Assembly: GCF_031326345.1 (NCBI RefSeq)
Contig: NZ_CP133671.1
Coordinates: forward strand, 2,542,001-2,606,000
Source of the DNA: Aureispira sp. CCB-E
GTDB taxonomy: Bacteria; Bacteroidota; Bacteroidia; Chitinophagales; Saprospiraceae
Direction of reading: 5' to 3'
DNA length: 64,000 nucleotides
Position 1 is the first letter of the stretch. Every line of letters begins with the position of its first letter. Both the position numbers and the translations under genes were made by a program. Of the stretch, positions 51,219 through 56,912 are shown one piece after another. Below the pieces are notes generated by a model. It saw only the letters and a list, made by a program, of their open reading frames with translations. It searched no databases and had not been told where the DNA came from.

Positions 51219-52970
51219 ATGAAAACAATCACAATGTTGTTACTGTTTTGTTCTTTTTTTTGCTCTGTATTAATGGCTCAAAGTGAGGCTCCTATACCTA
51301 TTAAAACCAATATTCATGCCGTTAAATTGCATTTGCAAGGAGCTGAAGTCATGCGAAAAACCTCGATTCCTTTAAAAGAAGGTAGAAATCATCTTGTATT
51401 TACAAATTTATCTCCTAAACTATATGAGCAAACAATCCAAGTTGCTACCAACAAAGCCGTAAAAGTTATTTCTGTTACAAGCAAACAGAATTTTATAGAA
51501 CGCCGTCAAGCTACCCCAAAAATCAAACGCTTAAACGATTCTTTGGATATATTAAGAGATGCGATAGATTTGCTGGAGAACGAACGTGGTTCTTATGAAG
51601 AAGAACAAGCATTGTTAAAGCAAAATCGTTCTATGAAATCTTCACAGCAAAATTTGACAGTGACAGAGCTCGAAAAAATGTCTGAGTTTTATCGAAAACG
51701 AAATTTTGAGATCAACAAAAATATTACCAGACTAACCAAGCGTATTACAACATTAAGCCGTCAGGTATTTGATTATAAATTGCAACTGTACGAATTAAAT
51801 GCCGATAGGAGGGCAATGGCAGAAATTTATCTAGTCGTAGAAGCGGCAACTGCTGCAAAAACAGACTTCGATTTGAGGTATGTTGTTAGTGATGCTGGAT
51901 GGGCTGCAATTTATGACTTAGAAGCCAGTAATTTTGGAAGTACAATTGACTTAGCATACCGAGCATTGACTTATAATAATACAGGAGTAGATTGGAATGA
52001 CGTGGAACTAACACTTTCGACAGGTGACCCCTTACAAAGTATGTTACAGCCAACTTTAAACGTCTGGAATTTGACAGGATCGTCTTCTTACCAAATCAAT
52101 ACGATTGCTAATATTGATATTAGTGTTAATAATAATGCTCCGATTCAACAGCAAATAATTCAGCCAAACAATTATTATGAGTTATCCAAAACAGATGAAA
52201 TTAAAGCAATCTTGGGCAAAGATTACTCAGAAACAATAGATTATAATACAGCAGAATTTGAACGTTATAGAAATAACCAGCCAGATATCCCAAACATGGT
52301 TACTGCAACATTGGAAGTGCCAGAGTTTAATGCAGATTTTAAAATTAAAAAGCCTTATACCATCCCTTCTGATCGAAAGCCTTATTCGGTAGATATAAAG
52401 CAATTTGAACTGCCTGCGACTTACAAGCATTATGCTGTCCCTAAATTAGACAAGGATGCTTTTTTATTAGCGCAAGTTGTCGGGTGGGAGGACTTGGATT
52501 TGGTTAGTGGTCCTATTAATATTTATAACAATAAGAAATACATAGGACAATCTCGATTGAGTATTGATAATTTGAGCGATACGTTATCTGTTTCGTTGGG
52601 TCGAGACCCCAACGTTGTTCTATCTAGAAAAAAGGTAAAAGGTTCTTCTAAAAAAGTATTTTTGGGGACTTCTAAAAAAGCAACAATTGCTTATGATATA
52701 GTGGTTAGAAACAATCATTCAAAGCCAATTAATATTGAAATTTTGGATCAAGTTCCGATCTCTTCAGATAAAGATGTTGTTATTACCGTTGATGAAAAGT
52801 CCAATGCTGCTTATGATGAAAAGACAGGGGTGTTATCTTGGAATTTGACGATTCCTTCCACTCAAAACAAAGCGTTGACATTTGGCTTTTCTATCAAATA
52901 TCCGAAAGATAAACAGGTGAAAATTGAGTATAAAAAATCACGCACAATGGAACAGATGCGTTATTTCTAG
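51219..52970 (+). CDS. MuiA-family protein (DUF4140-DUF4139)
   Basis: A 583-residue exported protein with a signal peptide (about 1-21, ending LMAQ). The N-terminal DUF4140-type domain holds VKLHLQGAEVMRKTSIPLKE. A coiled coil spans about residues 95-200, and the C-terminal DUF4139 beta-rich region includes LRYVVSDAGWAAIYDLEA, LSTGDP and the closing LTFGFSIKYPKDKQV. The family is named after a mucoidy inhibitor and is common in the envelope of Bacteroidota and Proteobacteria; its molecular role is unknown. It is monocistronic, ended by the bidirectional hairpin at 53009-53054. Confidence 0.88.
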   Translation: MKTITMLLLFCSFFCSVLMAQSEAPIPIKTNIHAVKLHLQGAEVMRKTSIPLKEGRNHLVFTNLSPKLYEQTIQVATNKAVKVISVTSKQNFIERRQATPKIKRLNDSLDILRDAIDLLENERGSYEEEQALLKQNRSMKSSQQNLTVTELEKMSEFYRKRNFEINKNITRLTKRITTLSRQVFDYKLQLYELNADRRAMAEIYLVVEAATAAKTDFDLRYVVSDAGWAAIYDLEASNFGSTIDLAYRALTYNNTGVDWNDVELTLSTGDPLQSMLQPTLNVWNLTGSSSYQINTIANIDISVNNNAPIQQQIIQPNNYYELSKTDEIKAILGKDYSETIDYNTAEFERYRNNQPDIPNMVTATLEVPEFNADFKIKKPYTIPSDRKPYSVDIKQFELPATYKHYAVPKLDKDAFLLAQVVGWEDLDLVSGPINIYNNKKYIGQSRLSIDNLSDTLSVSLGRDPNVVLSRKKVKGSSKKVFLGTSKKATIAYDIVVRNNHSKPINIEILDQVPISSDKDVVITVDEKSNAAYDEKTGVLSWNLTIPSTQNKALTFGFSIKYPKDKQVKIEYKKSRTMEQMRYF

Positions 52971-53008: not shown

Positions 53009-53054
53009 TAATATTCTGTACTTACTTTTTTATTTTAATAAATACAGAATATTA
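53009..53054. terminator. Bidirectional terminator between MuiA-like gene and rSAM operon
   Basis: A perfect 12-bp stem (taatattctgta at 53009-53020 with 53043-53054) lies between convergent genes, with an A/T-rich loop. Confidence 0.75.
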
Positions 53055-53113: not shown

Positions 53114-53389
53114 TTAATGAATGTTGAGGCTTAATGTTCCTAAACAAACTGAAAACCCAATGATTGCAATTAATAATCCTGCTAAAATAAGCGACATCCC
53201 TCTTGAACGATTGGGGTCGTTGCTAAAAATAGCCATAAAAAGCCCTACAACGAATATACCTCCAGCATGGATGTAGGCAATAATAGCGCCCGCCAATGCT
53301 GCATCACCATTATCACCTGCATGAATTAGTAAGGTATAGAGTATAAAAAGAAGTAGATTGATACCAATAATTTTTCCTGAATTTTCCAT
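53114..53389 (-). CDS. Small three-helix membrane protein of the rSAM operon
   Basis: A 91-residue integral membrane protein with hydrophobic helices at about residues 7-25, 31-59 and 64-84, and short polar loops (AGDNGDAAL, SNDPNRSRG). No family is recognised. It starts 23 bp after the radical SAM gene on the same strand and is the last gene before the terminator, so it is probably an accessory membrane component of that unit. Confidence 0.7.
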   Translation of the reverse strand: MENSGKIIGINLLLFILYTLLIHAGDNGDAALAGAIIAYIHAGGIFVVGLFMAIFSNDPNRSRGMSLILAGLLIAIIGFSVCLGTLSLNIH

Positions 53390-53412
53390 AATACTAGGCT
53401 TGTCGATTTCTG

Positions 53413-54858
53413 TTAATTAGGCAGAACTTCTTGTCGAAGAACGTTCAATTTTAGCTTTAATTCATCATTTCTATAAAATAGATTCATTGTTTCAAAAGGA
53501 ATTATTTTTCCATCTGTATTGACGATATGAACACAAGATTTTTTAATTGCTCGTACATCAAAGTCATAAGCATCCATAAAATTCATGATAATAATTCTAA
53601 AAAGGTTGCTATAATTTAATTCAGGAGCAACGATATTGGGCAAACAGCAAAGTAAATCGTGAAAACCTTCTTGAACTGTATCAACCGATTGAGCCGTACT
53701 AAAAACGTCTAATATTTTTCCTTTTAGAACTTGATCGTGTTCATAAACGATGGTATTTTTAGAATTATTGAGCAAGGCTTCTGGGTCAACCAAACTAGTT
53801 AGAGGAATGACTTTGTCAGCTACTTTCAAGGCATAGCCCATCACCAACGCATCTGGATTGCAAGGCACAGGTATTAAGTCGTTGGGTTTAAAAATAGGTG
53901 CTTGTTCTAAAATTTTGCGACGAATTTCTGTATTGGTCAATCTGTCTTTGCTAGGATCAAACTCTTCTAAACGACCACTAATTTGTATGGGTTGAAAGGT
54001 CACTCCTCGAACGCATTTTTGTTTTAATGCATAGTTGATAATTGTCCCAATTTCGTCATCGTTCAAACCTTTTTGAAGGGTTACTACTAGCGTGGTAGAT
54101 AGATTGAGTTGATTGAGGTTGTCTAGTGCTTTTTGGCGAATTTTAGTCAAGTCCTTGCCTCTTAATTTCAACAATGCTTCTGGTTTAAAAGAATCAAATT
54201 GTAAGTAAATTTCGAAGCGAGGCATATAACTTGCTAAGCGTTTGGCAAACTCAAAGTCTGTTCCAATTCGAAGCCCATTGGTATTGAGCATTAGATGCTT
54301 GATGGGTTTTGATTTTGCTAAGTCTAATATTTCAAAGAATTGGGGATGAATGGTGGGTTCTCCTCCACTAATTTGAACGACATCAGGCTCTCCTTCGCTG
54401 GCAACAATGGCATCTAACATGTTGTTAATTTCCTCCAAACTTCGATGATTGCCACAGGAAGGAGAAGAACTAGCATAACAAATGGGACAGGTTAAATTGC
54501 AACGATCTGTAATTTCAATTAAGGTTAGGCAAGAATGTTGTTCGTGATCAGGACAAATCCCGCAATCATACGGACAACCGTATTTGGTCTCTGTATGAGG
54601 TTTTAAAGGATATTCTGATGCTTTGTTATAATTTCTTATTTGCTTGTAATAGGCTATATCGTCTGCAATTAATACTTTTTGGTGACCGTGTGTGGGACAA
54701 TGTTTGCTTAAATAAACATTCTCATCTTCAAAAATAACTTTGGCATTGATGGTGCGATGACATTCATTGCAAAGGCTTTGTGTATGGTCATAATAAATGT
54801 AGTTGCGCATAAGGTTGATATAGCTTGAGGGTAATGTTAAATGAATTTTCAAAAACAA
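53413..54858 (-). CDS. Radical SAM enzyme, tetraether-lipid-synthase-like (MJ0619 group)
   Basis: A 481-residue radical SAM protein. The 4Fe-4S/SAM cysteines are Cys120, Cys124 and Cys127 in DRCNLTCPICYA. N-terminal to it are two extra Cys-rich motifs: Cys30, Cys33 and Cys54 (LCNEC ... HCPTHG), and Cys95, Cys99, Cys102 and Cys110 (YGCPYDCGICPDHEQHSC), which probably hold auxiliary metal centres. This arrangement is that of the MJ0619/Tes group, whose archaeal members join lipid chain ends to form tetraethers. Neighbouring membrane genes fit a lipid or lipoprotein substrate. An in-frame ATG at 54810 is a possible alternative start. Confidence 0.85.
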   Translation of the reverse strand: MFLKIHLTLPSSYINLMRNYIYYDHTQSLCNECHRTINAKVIFEDENVYLSKHCPTHGHQKVLIADDIAYYKQIRNYNKASEYPLKPHTETKYGCPYDCGICPDHEQHSCLTLIEITDRCNLTCPICYASSSPSCGNHRSLEEINNMLDAIVASEGEPDVVQISGGEPTIHPQFFEILDLAKSKPIKHLMLNTNGLRIGTDFEFAKRLASYMPRFEIYLQFDSFKPEALLKLRGKDLTKIRQKALDNLNQLNLSTTLVVTLQKGLNDDEIGTIINYALKQKCVRGVTFQPIQISGRLEEFDPSKDRLTNTEIRRKILEQAPIFKPNDLIPVPCNPDALVMGYALKVADKVIPLTSLVDPEALLNNSKNTIVYEHDQVLKGKILDVFSTAQSVDTVQEGFHDLLCCLPNIVAPELNYSNLFRIIIMNFMDAYDFDVRAIKKSCVHIVNTDGKIIPFETMNLFYRNDELKLKLNVLRQEVLPN

Positions 54859-54896
54859 TTGGCGACCTATTGTAAAGTATAGTTTTTTCTGGACGA

Positions 54897-55667
54897 CTAC
54901 TTATTGTGTAATAATTGTTTAGGATGAAAAAATAACTGATAAAAGGTTCGACTATAGTAAAGCATTCCTAATAAACAGGTAAGTTGAATGGTACTTAGCC
55001 CAAAAGAAAATTTATAACCAGGCTTGATGAAATCAATCATAAAACGGAAAATAAAATAAGCCATTAAAAAGAATTGAAAACGAATGCCTTCTCTAAAGTT
55101 AACGTTTTTTTCAATACAAACAAAAGATAGCCAAAGCGTTCCTAAGAACAGAATTTCGTAAAGTGCTACTGGATGGCGGCGAATACCATCTCCCAAATAC
55201 AAAGCCCAAGGTAAATCAGAGGGAAGACCGTAGGTTTGTTCGTGAATTCCCATAGAAAGGCAACCTATTCGACCAATCATCATGCCCAATAGGAGGGGAT
55301 AAACAAATAAATCTCCAGAAGATCGCTTTTCTCCAATGATTTTTTTTACGATTTCAACACAAATCAAGCCCCCGAACAAGGCGCCAACAATGGTTTTGTT
55401 CAAATAAAAATAGAGTAGTCTATTTGGTGAATTAAAAAATTGAACAGGATTTTCTAAACTACCAATTAATCTAGAAAAAATGAGTGCCCCTAATGCTGCC
55501 CCAACTAATATCCAAAGCCGATTGGGTTCTGAAATAGTGTCTTTTTGTTTTCGACGTAAATACAAGAAATATTGAAACCCAATTGCAATGCCTAGCACTT
55601 CAAAAACCAAATGTGCCAATATGCTGAATGGACCAAATCTAAAAACTAAAGGAAATGTTATCTCCAT
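54897..55667 (-). CDS. Lgt-like integral membrane protein (prolipoprotein diacylglyceryl transferase family)
   Basis: A 256-residue protein with about seven transmembrane helices. It resembles Lgt in topology and in the motifs GRIGC (Arg133, equivalent to the Lgt signature Arg) and GIRRHPVALYE (Arg164). Two catalytic positions differ: the essential His of the Lgt FHGG motif is Phe98 (ALFGG), and the Asn of GRIxN is Cys136. It therefore probably does not perform the ordinary lipoprotein reaction and may use another acceptor or lipid. It starts 34 bp after the upstream gene and lies 38 bp before the radical SAM gene. Confidence 0.8.
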   Translation of the reverse strand: MEITFPLVFRFGPFSILAHLVFEVLGIAIGFQYFLYLRRKQKDTISEPNRLWILVGAALGALIFSRLIGSLENPVQFFNSPNRLLYFYLNKTIVGALFGGLICVEIVKKIIGEKRSSGDLFVYPLLLGMMIGRIGCLSMGIHEQTYGLPSDLPWALYLGDGIRRHPVALYEILFLGTLWLSFVCIEKNVNFREGIRFQFFLMAYFIFRFMIDFIKPGYKFSFGLSTIQLTCLLGMLYYSRTFYQLFFHPKQLLHNK

Positions 55668-55701
55668 GTGGTGGTTATTAATTACTTAAAAAGTTATTAG
55701 G

Positions 55702-56826
55702 CTAATAATCAAAAATGTGCTCTATCTCAATTTCTTTTTGCTCCAACTCCAAAACCAAGGCACTTAAGTTAGCAACCAGAACGACTAAGGCAACACGTTC
55801 TAATGTTTTATGGGTGGCAATGGTTTGTCTAAAAATAGCTTTAGAATACTGTTGTGGGGCTTCCCAGTTTTGGGGTACCACAACGGTCAGTAAAATCGCT
55901 GAACGATTTCCTGCAATCTCTATAATACGAGCCCCCGCTTTTATCAAAGCACATAACGAAGGGTTGAAGGCTGCATAGCGGGGCAATGTGATTAACGTAG
56001 CTTCTGGTGAAAGTACCTTTATAAGTGCCAAACCTAAGTCGTTTTGATCGACTTCGGGTGGTAGTTGGTTAATGACAACAGCGGTAACTGGTGCAGCAAC
56101 GCCATAAGCAGATTTTGTTCCCATGCCCAACAAAAAGCCATAAAAAGCTTTAAAAAGCAATTCACCACTAATAAAAACTCGACGTTCTATCTTGCGTATC
56201 CAATTCCATTCTAAGCAAGTTGTTTGAAACCAAAGCTGCCGAAATTCCTTTAAAAAAGAATAAAGATACCAAGGTTCTTTTTTTATAAAATCAACATAGC
56301 GTTGCGTATAAGCAGCATAAAAGCGATCTTCTGCCGTCATTTTAGAAGGAATGAGGTCTGTTAAACGTCCCACACTACCTTCATACAAAAGCTTGCCTCG
56401 ATACTCGATCAATGTGCTATATCCAATCACTTGGATCATTGTGTAGTATTGCTTGTTGTAAGGAAAGTAAGGGGCAATGGCTTTAGACAAAGCATGGTAG
56501 CTGTCCCAAAATTGTTCTACGTGTTGCTCATAAGGAAAATGAGTAGCGGTCTGCTGTTTAAAATAAGCGGCTTGTTCGGCAGGGCTAAAAACTAAAAACC
56601 ATTCAGGATAGGTTAAAAATGTCTGGTCACCAGGTCGTTGGTAGGCTGTTGGTGTCAAGGGCGAAACGTTTGTCGGAAACCAATCCTTGTTCAATTGTAT
56701 GGTCGGTTTTATTTTCTTTGCTCGAATTCTTGTTTTAATAAAAAAAAGAAGGAAAATAAGAGCTAAAAATAAGAGTAAAGAAAGCAATATAGGCATTGTG
56801 GTGAAAATTGGTGATGGTGTTGTCAA
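55702..56826 (-). CDS. Unknown membrane-anchored protein leading the rSAM operon
   Basis: A 374-residue protein with one strong N-terminal transmembrane helix (about residues 12-31) followed by a basic stop-transfer segment. The soluble part is rich in Tyr, Trp and Phe; it has the striking motif YQRPGDQTFLTYPEWFLVFSP cut to TFLTYPEWF here, a central region with IQVIGYSTLIEYRG and a second hydrophobic segment around ELLFKAFYGFLLGM. No family is recognised. It is the first gene of a four-gene unit with its own -7 box 12 bp upstream, so it probably works with the Lgt-like and radical SAM proteins. Confidence 0.7.
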   Translation of the reverse strand: MTTPSPIFTTMPILLSLLLFLALIFLLFFIKTRIRAKKIKPTIQLNKDWFPTNVSPLTPTAYQRPGDQTFLTYPEWFLVFSPAEQAAYFKQQTATHFPYEQHVEQFWDSYHALSKAIAPYFPYNKQYYTMIQVIGYSTLIEYRGKLLYEGSVGRLTDLIPSKMTAEDRFYAAYTQRYVDFIKKEPWYLYSFLKEFRQLWFQTTCLEWNWIRKIERRVFISGELLFKAFYGFLLGMGTKSAYGVAAPVTAVVINQLPPEVDQNDLGLALIKVLSPEATLITLPRYAAFNPSLCALIKAGARIIEIAGNRSAILLTVVVPQNWEAPQQYSKAIFRQTIATHKTLERVALVVLVANLSALVLELEQKEIEIEHIFDY

Positions 56827-56837
56827 ATCTTATGCAA

Positions 56838-56845
56838 CAAAGATA
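56838..56845 (-). promoter_or_regulatory. Bacteroidota -7 box (TATCTTTG) for the rSAM/Lgt-like operon
   Basis: TATCTTTG on the minus strand, ending 12 bp before the first start codon of the operon. It places a promoter between the operon and the hairpin terminator of the upstream gene. Confidence 0.55.
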
Positions 56846-56873
56846 CTTGTATTTAAATCAGGGCAAACAAAAC

Positions 56874-56912
56874 AATACTTCGTGTATTGTTTATAAAAAC
56901 ACACGAAGTATT
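56874..56912 (-). terminator. Hairpin terminator of the DUF3857 gene
   Basis: A perfect 12-bp stem (aatacttcgtgt at 56874-56885 with 56901-56912) and 15-nt loop, 50 bp after the preceding stop codon. It isolates the rSAM/Lgt-like operon. Confidence 0.7.

Follow-up and report, generated by a model that had tools for sequence, protein, structure and literature searches.

An Lgt-fold protein, a radical SAM protein of the Tes/TrsS superfamily and a small cysteine membrane protein travel together and probably make a lipid modification of the cell membrane

What is made by a gene cluster that sets a relative of the radical S-adenosylmethionine (SAM) enzyme Tes beside a relative of the diacylglyceryl transferase Lgt, and which of its genes belong together? 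The question is raised by positions 53114 to 56826 of a 64,000-nucleotide stretch of Aureispira sp. CCB-E (contig NZ_CP133671.1, positions 2,542,001 to 2,606,000), referred to herein as the window, where an earlier note made from the sequence alone had proposed a self-contained four-gene operon for an envelope lipid or lipoprotein modification. The four minus-strand open reading frames (ORFs) were confirmed at their coordinates, with intergenic gaps of 34, 38 and 23 bp, and encode, in order, a predicted anchored protein (orf1), an Lgt-fold membrane protein, a radical SAM protein of the Tes/TrsS superfamily and a small membrane protein. We found that the conserved module comprises the last three genes, without orf1. 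These three travel together across loci, almost certainly form one functional unit, and probably make a lipid modification of the cell membrane.

To assess the pairing of the radical SAM and Lgt-like genes, 395 Bacteroidota genomes were searched with the radical SAM protein as query (E<=1e-30) and with a profile of the Lgt-like protein (E<=1e-45). At these thresholds 34 genomes held a radical SAM match and 32 an Lgt-like gene. A radical SAM gene of the window's own subfamily (window-type) was present in 31 genomes, all of which also carried an Lgt-like gene (hypergeometric p 2.8e-45, a figure that ignores kinship). Three of the 34 (G066, G096 and G302) hold distant radical SAM members only, with no Lgt-like gene at the same threshold; for those of G066 and G302 the best-scoring family is Tes, at 493.8 and 441.9 bits against a cut-off of 450. 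Among 249 Bacillota genomes, of which the seed genome G412 is not independent, the Lgt-like profile matched three, exactly those with a radical SAM match above 500 bits, and an Lgt-like gene was found in 0 of the 17 with only 265-355-bit radical SAM matches.

The same partnership is seen in gene order. Across 107 loci (26 regions from genomes, the window and 80 named contigs), an LGT-family gene was present in 94 when all reading frames were counted, always on the radical SAM strand; it lay within 1.5 kb in 90 and within 200 bp upstream in 70. Greedy longest-ORF gene calls had missed nine of these genes, giving 85 loci, 66 of them with the LGT-family gene as the next gene upstream. Some loci share a genome (L088 and L153, both from G411, and probably L008 with L081 and L013 with L109), so that loci are not independent genomes. 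When loci were sorted by radical SAM subfamily, an Lgt-like gene stood within 1.5 kb on the same strand in 95 of 110 window-type loci and in three of six loci of a sister group, named ICMT-type, versus 0/11 archaeal Tes loci (4 of 15 having been dropped for want of a complete ORF), 0/3 TrsS, 0/9 'longN' and 0/2 'merR-type' loci. The 13 of 107 loci without an LGT-family gene include two that score as Tes (L055 and L056). In others the partner is present but unlinked: it lies on another contig for L046 (G034) and L049 (G272) and elsewhere in the genome for L063 (G395) and L119 (G406; 199 and 343 bits), although in each of these four loci the sequence extends 8 kb beyond the radical SAM gene on its upstream side. 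Four further loci at contig ends (L067, L095, L126 and L140) come from genomes that hold an Lgt-like gene elsewhere, at 278-342 bits. We conclude that the pairing noted earlier from this one locus is real and close to obligatory.

Nor is the module restricted to Bacteroidota. Carriers with an Lgt-like gene close by include Bacteroidota, Bacillota (Paenibacillus, Fictibacillus, Brevibacillus, Neobacillus, Cohnella and Saccharibacillus), Acidobacteriota, Cyanobacteriota and Pseudomonadota. An Lgt-like gene is also close to the radical SAM gene of a Thalassarchaeaceae archaeon (L129), and lies 2.3 kb downstream of that of a planctomycete (L133).

The third member of the module is small and changes fast. 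Directly 3' of the radical SAM gene there often lies a gene for a protein of some 60-145 aa that contains two to three hydrophobic helices; in the window it occupies 53114..53389 on the minus strand (91 aa, three helices), its last helix running from a positive flank, RSRG, to a lipobox-like GFSVC, and its C-terminus reading LNIH. The sequences are barely alike, and their similarity clusters are short and split. A Cys was found in the last 30 residues of 60 of 61 clustered proteins (52 loci), with S, G or A at -2 of the Cys in 58 of the 60 and G at -4 in 39. We then applied a signature filter requiring a Cys plus S/G/A at -2 within 700 bp downstream of the radical SAM gene. It selected 49 of 80 loci versus 4 of the 577 control stretches taken at 2-6 kb, and found nothing on the opposite strand of the same downstream stretch; since the filter itself demands S/G/A at -2, the preference at that position is read from the sequence clusters only. 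When the search also took in the region 5' of the radical SAM gene, the signature was found in 71 of 110 window-type loci and, over the same downstream and upstream regions, in 0 of 31 loci of other subfamilies, ICMT-type included.

Two properties of the small protein bear on its role. Lys or Arg stands ahead of the last helix in 68 of 70 proteins, the tail after the Cys has neither in 57, and the net charge summed over the 70 is +148 before the last helix versus +6 after the Cys; this pattern predicts an outward-facing Cys. The gene is sometimes repeated: in 13 of 70 loci a span of 1.7 kb contains two or three such ORFs, every copy with a Cys of its own, a duplication that fits a substrate role, and one locus (L077) holds four similarity-clustered copies. 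When compared with the lipobox [LV][ASTVI][GAS]C that follows a positive and then hydrophobic segment, as defined in the accessible text of PMC8689077, the Cys-bearing helix is the last of two or three and not an N-terminal signal. The C-terminal residue pair is -FH or -MH in 14 of 70 proteins, from Bacteroidota and also from Acidobacteria and Proteobacteria loci (e.g. L154, L086 and L134). An identity as BrkB was rejected (18 bits, cut-off 33.7).

The radical SAM protein was examined for its family, fold and metal sites. The gene (53413..54858, minus strand) is listed from a TTG, giving 481 aa; the ATG at 54810 (465 aa) is the probable start, and residue numbers count from it. Pfam identified a Radical_SAM domain, a zinc ribbon and a weak Fer4_12 match. 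The protein scores 324 bits with TrsS (NF045646, cut-off 490) and 288 with Tes (NF045702, cut-off 450), and its best match among Protein Data Bank (PDB) sequences is the Tes structure GDGT-MAS, 7tol (1.1e-68). Its AlphaFold 2 model (predicted local distance difference test, pLDDT, 89.7) was matched by Foldseek to 7tom/7tol over the full length, at template modelling (TM) scores of 0.81-0.82 versus 0.39 or less for the other entries listed; region 370-394, including C388 and C389, is mostly under pLDDT 50. According to the available part of PMC9433317, GDGT-MAS holds three [Fe4S4] clusters and one rubredoxin-like iron, with a labile Met439 on the C-terminal cluster. From archaeal conservation, we predict three Cys as the other ligands of that cluster. 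In an alignment of 59 window-type proteins, the rubredoxin-like and N-terminal auxiliary Cys (columns 14, 17, 38, 79, 83 and 86) are kept in 58 rows, the remaining row being gapped, and the CX3CX2C Cys (columns 104, 108 and 111) in all 59. The window sequence also has the His of the rubredoxin-like C-X2-C...C-X2-H, and its auxiliary motif is C-X3-C-X2-C. The Met439 column is Met in 43 of 59 rows, and the window-type proteins have a C-terminal Cys set of their own, C317, C388, C389 and C426, each in 58-59 of 59. Model and alignment together predict that the radical SAM protein shares with Tes/GDGT-MAS its fold and, of four metal sites, three.

In a tree of 87 proteins, made by a quick method with Shimodaira-Hasegawa-like approximate likelihood ratio (SH-aLRT) supports only and with nine close rows and L142 left out, the 50 window-type rows form one side of a branch with support 100. 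The ICMT-type rows adjoin them (support 96 for the two groups combined), and a branch of 99 sets these apart from the Tes and TrsS rows, with the caveat that long branches meet there (TrsS with the window side, the Tes side with merR-type). The closest protein in the tree, 85% identical, comes from an uncultured Aureispira. Filing the protein as Tes or TrsS is ruled out by its scores, its clade and its Cys set. The description 'Tes-like' in the earlier note thus stands for the fold and three Cys sites and fails for clade membership and the C-terminal Cys. As for a clade of known non-lipid function, no clade member with a known function of any kind was encountered.

The Lgt-like protein (54897..55667, minus strand, 256 aa) passes Pfam LGT (PF01790) at 73 bits (cut-off 24.9) and falls below the cut-off of NCBIfam lgt (30.5 versus 118.9 bits). 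Its AlphaFold 2 model (pLDDT 93.5) has E. coli Lgt, 5azb, as its sole PDB match at E<=0.001 (E 1.6e-7, TM 0.58). In an alignment of 85 relatives with the genome's canonical Lgt, to which E. coli numbers were transferred by hand, R133, Y204, R208 and E171 align with E. coli Arg143, Tyr235, Arg239 and Glu202 and are invariant in 85/85. The position of Asn146 is Cys (C136) in all 85 Lgt-like rows, and that of His103 is V94 in the window and V, M or L in at least 72 of 78 window-type rows, a lower bound in which the three commonest residues only were counted. In E. coli Lgt, changes at His103 inactivate the enzyme, Asn146Ala abolishes activity, and docking puts Arg143, Asn146, Glu202, Tyr235 and Arg239 among the residues around the phosphatidylglycerol headgroup, as described in the accessible portion of PMC8689077. 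The loss of His103 and the Cys at Asn146 rule out filing the protein as a working Lgt. A canonical Lgt is encoded separately in the window's genome (L003), as is a third LGT-family gene, G000:C1:191626-192330 (L004), which also has Cys at the Asn146 position (GRLGCHF).

How might three such proteins work together? A lipid-related role, as the earlier note had suggested, is the most natural reading, and we lean, on balance, towards a module that acts on lipid. Our best reading is radical chemistry on a phospholipid or a lipidated protein, the product being one that we infer. The Lgt-fold protein, presumably no longer an ordinary Lgt, would bind or present phosphatidylglycerol or a similar diacylglyceryl lipid. 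The radical SAM enzyme would cleave SAM and abstract a hydrogen from the bound lipid, most likely from its hydrocarbon chain as Tes does, and its C-terminal auxiliary cluster could help to make a new C-S or C-C bond. Since Tes passes through a bond between a substrate carbon and a cluster sulfur (accessible part of PMC9433317), a Tes relative is a reasonable maker of a C-S bond. The most likely acceptor would then be the outer-face Cys of the small protein, lipobox-like at the end of its helix, giving an uncleaved lipid-modified membrane protein. We hold radical lipid modification with the small protein as acceptor to be the best explanation overall, although it falls somewhat short of an even chance; the acceptor role of the small protein, taken by itself, is a tentative and rather doubtful assignment. 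In its most specific form, the reading proposes a new lipidation found in several bacterial phyla, in which the altered Lgt holds a phospholipid whose hydrocarbon chain or glyceryl part the radical enzyme attaches to the outer-face Cys of the small membrane protein, and an uncleaved lipoprotein arises through a carbon radical rather than nucleophilic transfer; with all these details together it is unlikely.

Several observations weigh against radical lipid modification with the small protein as acceptor. As the Lgt-like protein is without the catalytic His, plain diacylglyceryl transfer is doubtful. The archaeal Tes Cys at columns 321, 425 and 440 are not conserved in window-type proteins, which have mostly A or C (24 and 20 of 59), S/T and D/E there, and because these C-terminal Cys are absent, Tes chemistry is not simply transferable. 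The Cys of the small protein is predicted on the outer side of the membrane versus a radical SAM protein that is presumably cytosolic. Its motif departs in part from a true lipobox, with mostly T/A/V/I at -1 instead of [GAS] and mostly F/L/N at -3, and in 39 of 110 window-type loci the filter gave no match to the strict signature over the distance searched. In three draft genomes a radical SAM gene is present and no Lgt-like gene scores above the canonical level: G399 (L080) and G401 (L091, at a contig end) gave no Lgt-like match at E<=1e-15, and the LGT matches of G403 (L097, at a contig end) reach only 82-84 bits, the level of a canonical Lgt. Conversely, one Bacteroidota genome (G017) has an Lgt-like gene and no radical SAM gene. 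That Lgt-like protein (L188) keeps R133, C136, Y204 and R208 and is changed at H19, K91, E105 and K108.

Of the alternatives to lipidation of the small protein, the one that survives best is a free-lipid product, in which two acyl chains are coupled to each other, or one to another lipid, as a membrane-spanning or tethered lipid, with the Lgt-fold protein handing over phospholipids and the small protein as an accessory. We consider this unlikely but a serious candidate. The closest solved structure is GDGT-MAS, whose long hydrophobic pocket also took up bacterial phospholipids according to the available text of PMC9433317, and the headgroup residues are kept in the Lgt-like protein. However, the clade is separate from Tes, the archaeal Tes C-terminal Cys trio is missing, the Tes insertion between the PVPC and HPHC columns is missing from the rows printed, and the duplication of the small protein is left unexplained.

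A small, fast-changing and sometimes duplicated neighbour with one conserved Cys would also suit a maturation system like those of ribosomally synthesized and post-translationally modified peptides, in which the small protein itself is the target of the radical SAM enzyme, for example through a thioether or other cross-link at the Cys, and the Lgt-fold protein serves as scaffold or in later lipidation. This is quite unlikely, as Pfam shows no precursor-binding domain in the radical SAM protein and its full-length fold match is a lipid enzyme, not the SPASM maturases. Less probable again is a methylation, desaturation or other change of an existing lipid or quinone in which the neighbours only give membrane access; it recalls that MJ0619 was first annotated as a methylase (accessible part of PMC9433317) and that genes for an ICMT/PEMT-type methyltransferase and a DUF4395 protein neighbour the sister group, but it leaves the near-obligatory Lgt partner and the Cys protein unexplained. 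A neutral neighbourhood effect, that is co-transfer with no joint function, would suit the patchy distribution (6 of 9 genomes of the window's genus, its own included, carry the radical SAM gene) but is hardly credible, as the partners are kept in the four genomes where they are unlinked and the partner is absent from genomes with other radical SAM subfamilies.

The remaining gene, orf1 (55702..56826, minus strand, 374 aa), is predicted to encode an anchored protein with no Pfam or NCBIfam match at E<=0.01. Matches were found in 4 of the 60 genomes searched, the window's own included and all of the same genus, and orf1 adjoins the radical SAM/Lgt-like pair at three loci, the window's (L190), L191 and L192. 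A four-gene operon as a conserved unit, as proposed in the earlier note, is therefore ruled out, and the concern that the four genes are rarely neighbours in relatives applies to orf1 only, the other three being kept together. An orf1 paralogue (42% identical) lies away from the module at G000:C1:2833916-2834995 (L194). The flanking signals described earlier are present. Upstream of orf1, a regular-expression search found a promoter-like TTG / TATCTTTG pair on the minus strand (56838..56870; match 56838-56866 or 56870), which resembles a Bacteroidota-type promoter. As the pair is frequent by chance in the window (the minus strand has 8 matches at 6 places and the plus strand 14), the box is weak evidence on its own. 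The listed TTG start of orf1 at 56826 is only 12 bases from the -7 box; an internal ATG is the probable start. Terminator-like inverted repeats, unassigned to strand, lie 5' of the unit (56874..56912; 18 nt, 89%) and between the unit and the convergent gene at 51219-52970 (53009..53054; 16 nt, 94%).

Relatives outside the window-type clade have neighbourhoods of their own. The ICMT-type sister group (L051, L052, L053, L061, L062 and L075) is found near an Lgt-like protein, several members with an ICMT/PEMT-type methyltransferase; L051, L052, L053 and L061 additionally encode a small Cys membrane protein and a DUF4395-like protein whose tail is Cys-rich. The methyltransferase and DUF4395 were Pfam-checked for L051 and read from the sequences at the other loci. 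By eye, a protein like the window's small protein follows the Lgt gene in L051, L052, L053 and L061, beyond the filtered stretch. In the Bacteroidota genome G066 the radical SAM protein at L055:7864-9321 is above the Tes cut-off (493.8 versus 450 bits), and no Lgt-like gene was found in its 17 kb region. L054 (G096) encodes a distant, 30% identical radical SAM relative, preceded at 360 bp on the same strand by a distant LGT-family gene (122.5 bits), and may be a further variant of the pair. Another superfamily branch in Acidobacteria (L183 and L185) adjoins a flavin adenine dinucleotide (FAD) oxidoreductase, mercuric-reductase-like by the start of its sequence. TrsS is reportedly named in a paper by Haft and Tolstoy. 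All three true TrsS loci L176, L177 and L178 have a 133-161 aa protein directly upstream with a twin-arginine-like N-terminus (SRREFA / SRRNFT). TrsS is listed as a selenoprotein in the accessible part of PMC13188914, and a true TrsS from Acidobacteria (L142) has an in-frame TGA at the window C317 column, as expected for one; this TGA would place the TrsS selenocysteine at a conserved Cys of the superfamily.

In the open-licence literature we found no study of the radical SAM/Lgt-like pair, whether directly, through the old pterin annotation or through Bacteroidota Tes homologues. Bacterial Tes homologues are discussed as candidate makers of those bacterial membrane-spanning lipids that serve in palaeoclimate proxies (accessible part of PMC8941075). 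Our analysis sets a large bacterial branch apart by its C-terminal Cys set and near-obligatory Lgt-like partner, and for these reasons the window-type branch should not be counted as Tes without a test. An orphan enzyme thereby gains defined partners, one of them a small membrane protein that clustering by similarity breaks up or overlooks, and the three-gene system is testable in carrier genera with cultured strains (Flavobacterium, Chitinophaga, Mucilaginibacter and Paenibacillus).

In the available text of PMC12010503, Pseudarthrobacter single-cell genomes are mentioned in passing to have a stretch of about 3.5 kb with radical SAM and prolipoprotein diacylglyceryl transferase genes, present in three genomes and missing in one; this pair is likened to ours by the same two annotations. 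TrsS gives the best NCBIfam score of the radical SAM protein and has Cys columns 317 and 94 in common with it, but the score is 324 of the required 490 bits (306-359 for 13 window-type and ICMT-type members, all under the cut-off), the clade is separate and the three true TrsS loci are without an Lgt-like neighbour. With Tes/GDGT-MAS MJ0619 (NF045702; 7tol, 7tom) the radical SAM protein has in common the full-length fold and the rubredoxin-like, N-terminal auxiliary and CX3CX2C Cys, whereas window-type proteins form a separate clade, score 288 of 450 bits, have their own C-terminal Cys set in a shorter C-terminal region, lack in the rows printed the PVPC-HPHC insertion that is a feature of Tes, and are nearly always accompanied by an Lgt-like partner. 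That partner has the fold of Lgt (PF01790; 5azb) and residues aligned with Arg143, Tyr235, Arg239 and Glu202, but is without His103 and Asn146 and scores below the NCBIfam lgt cut-off. We rate the module as a variant built from known kinds of enzyme.

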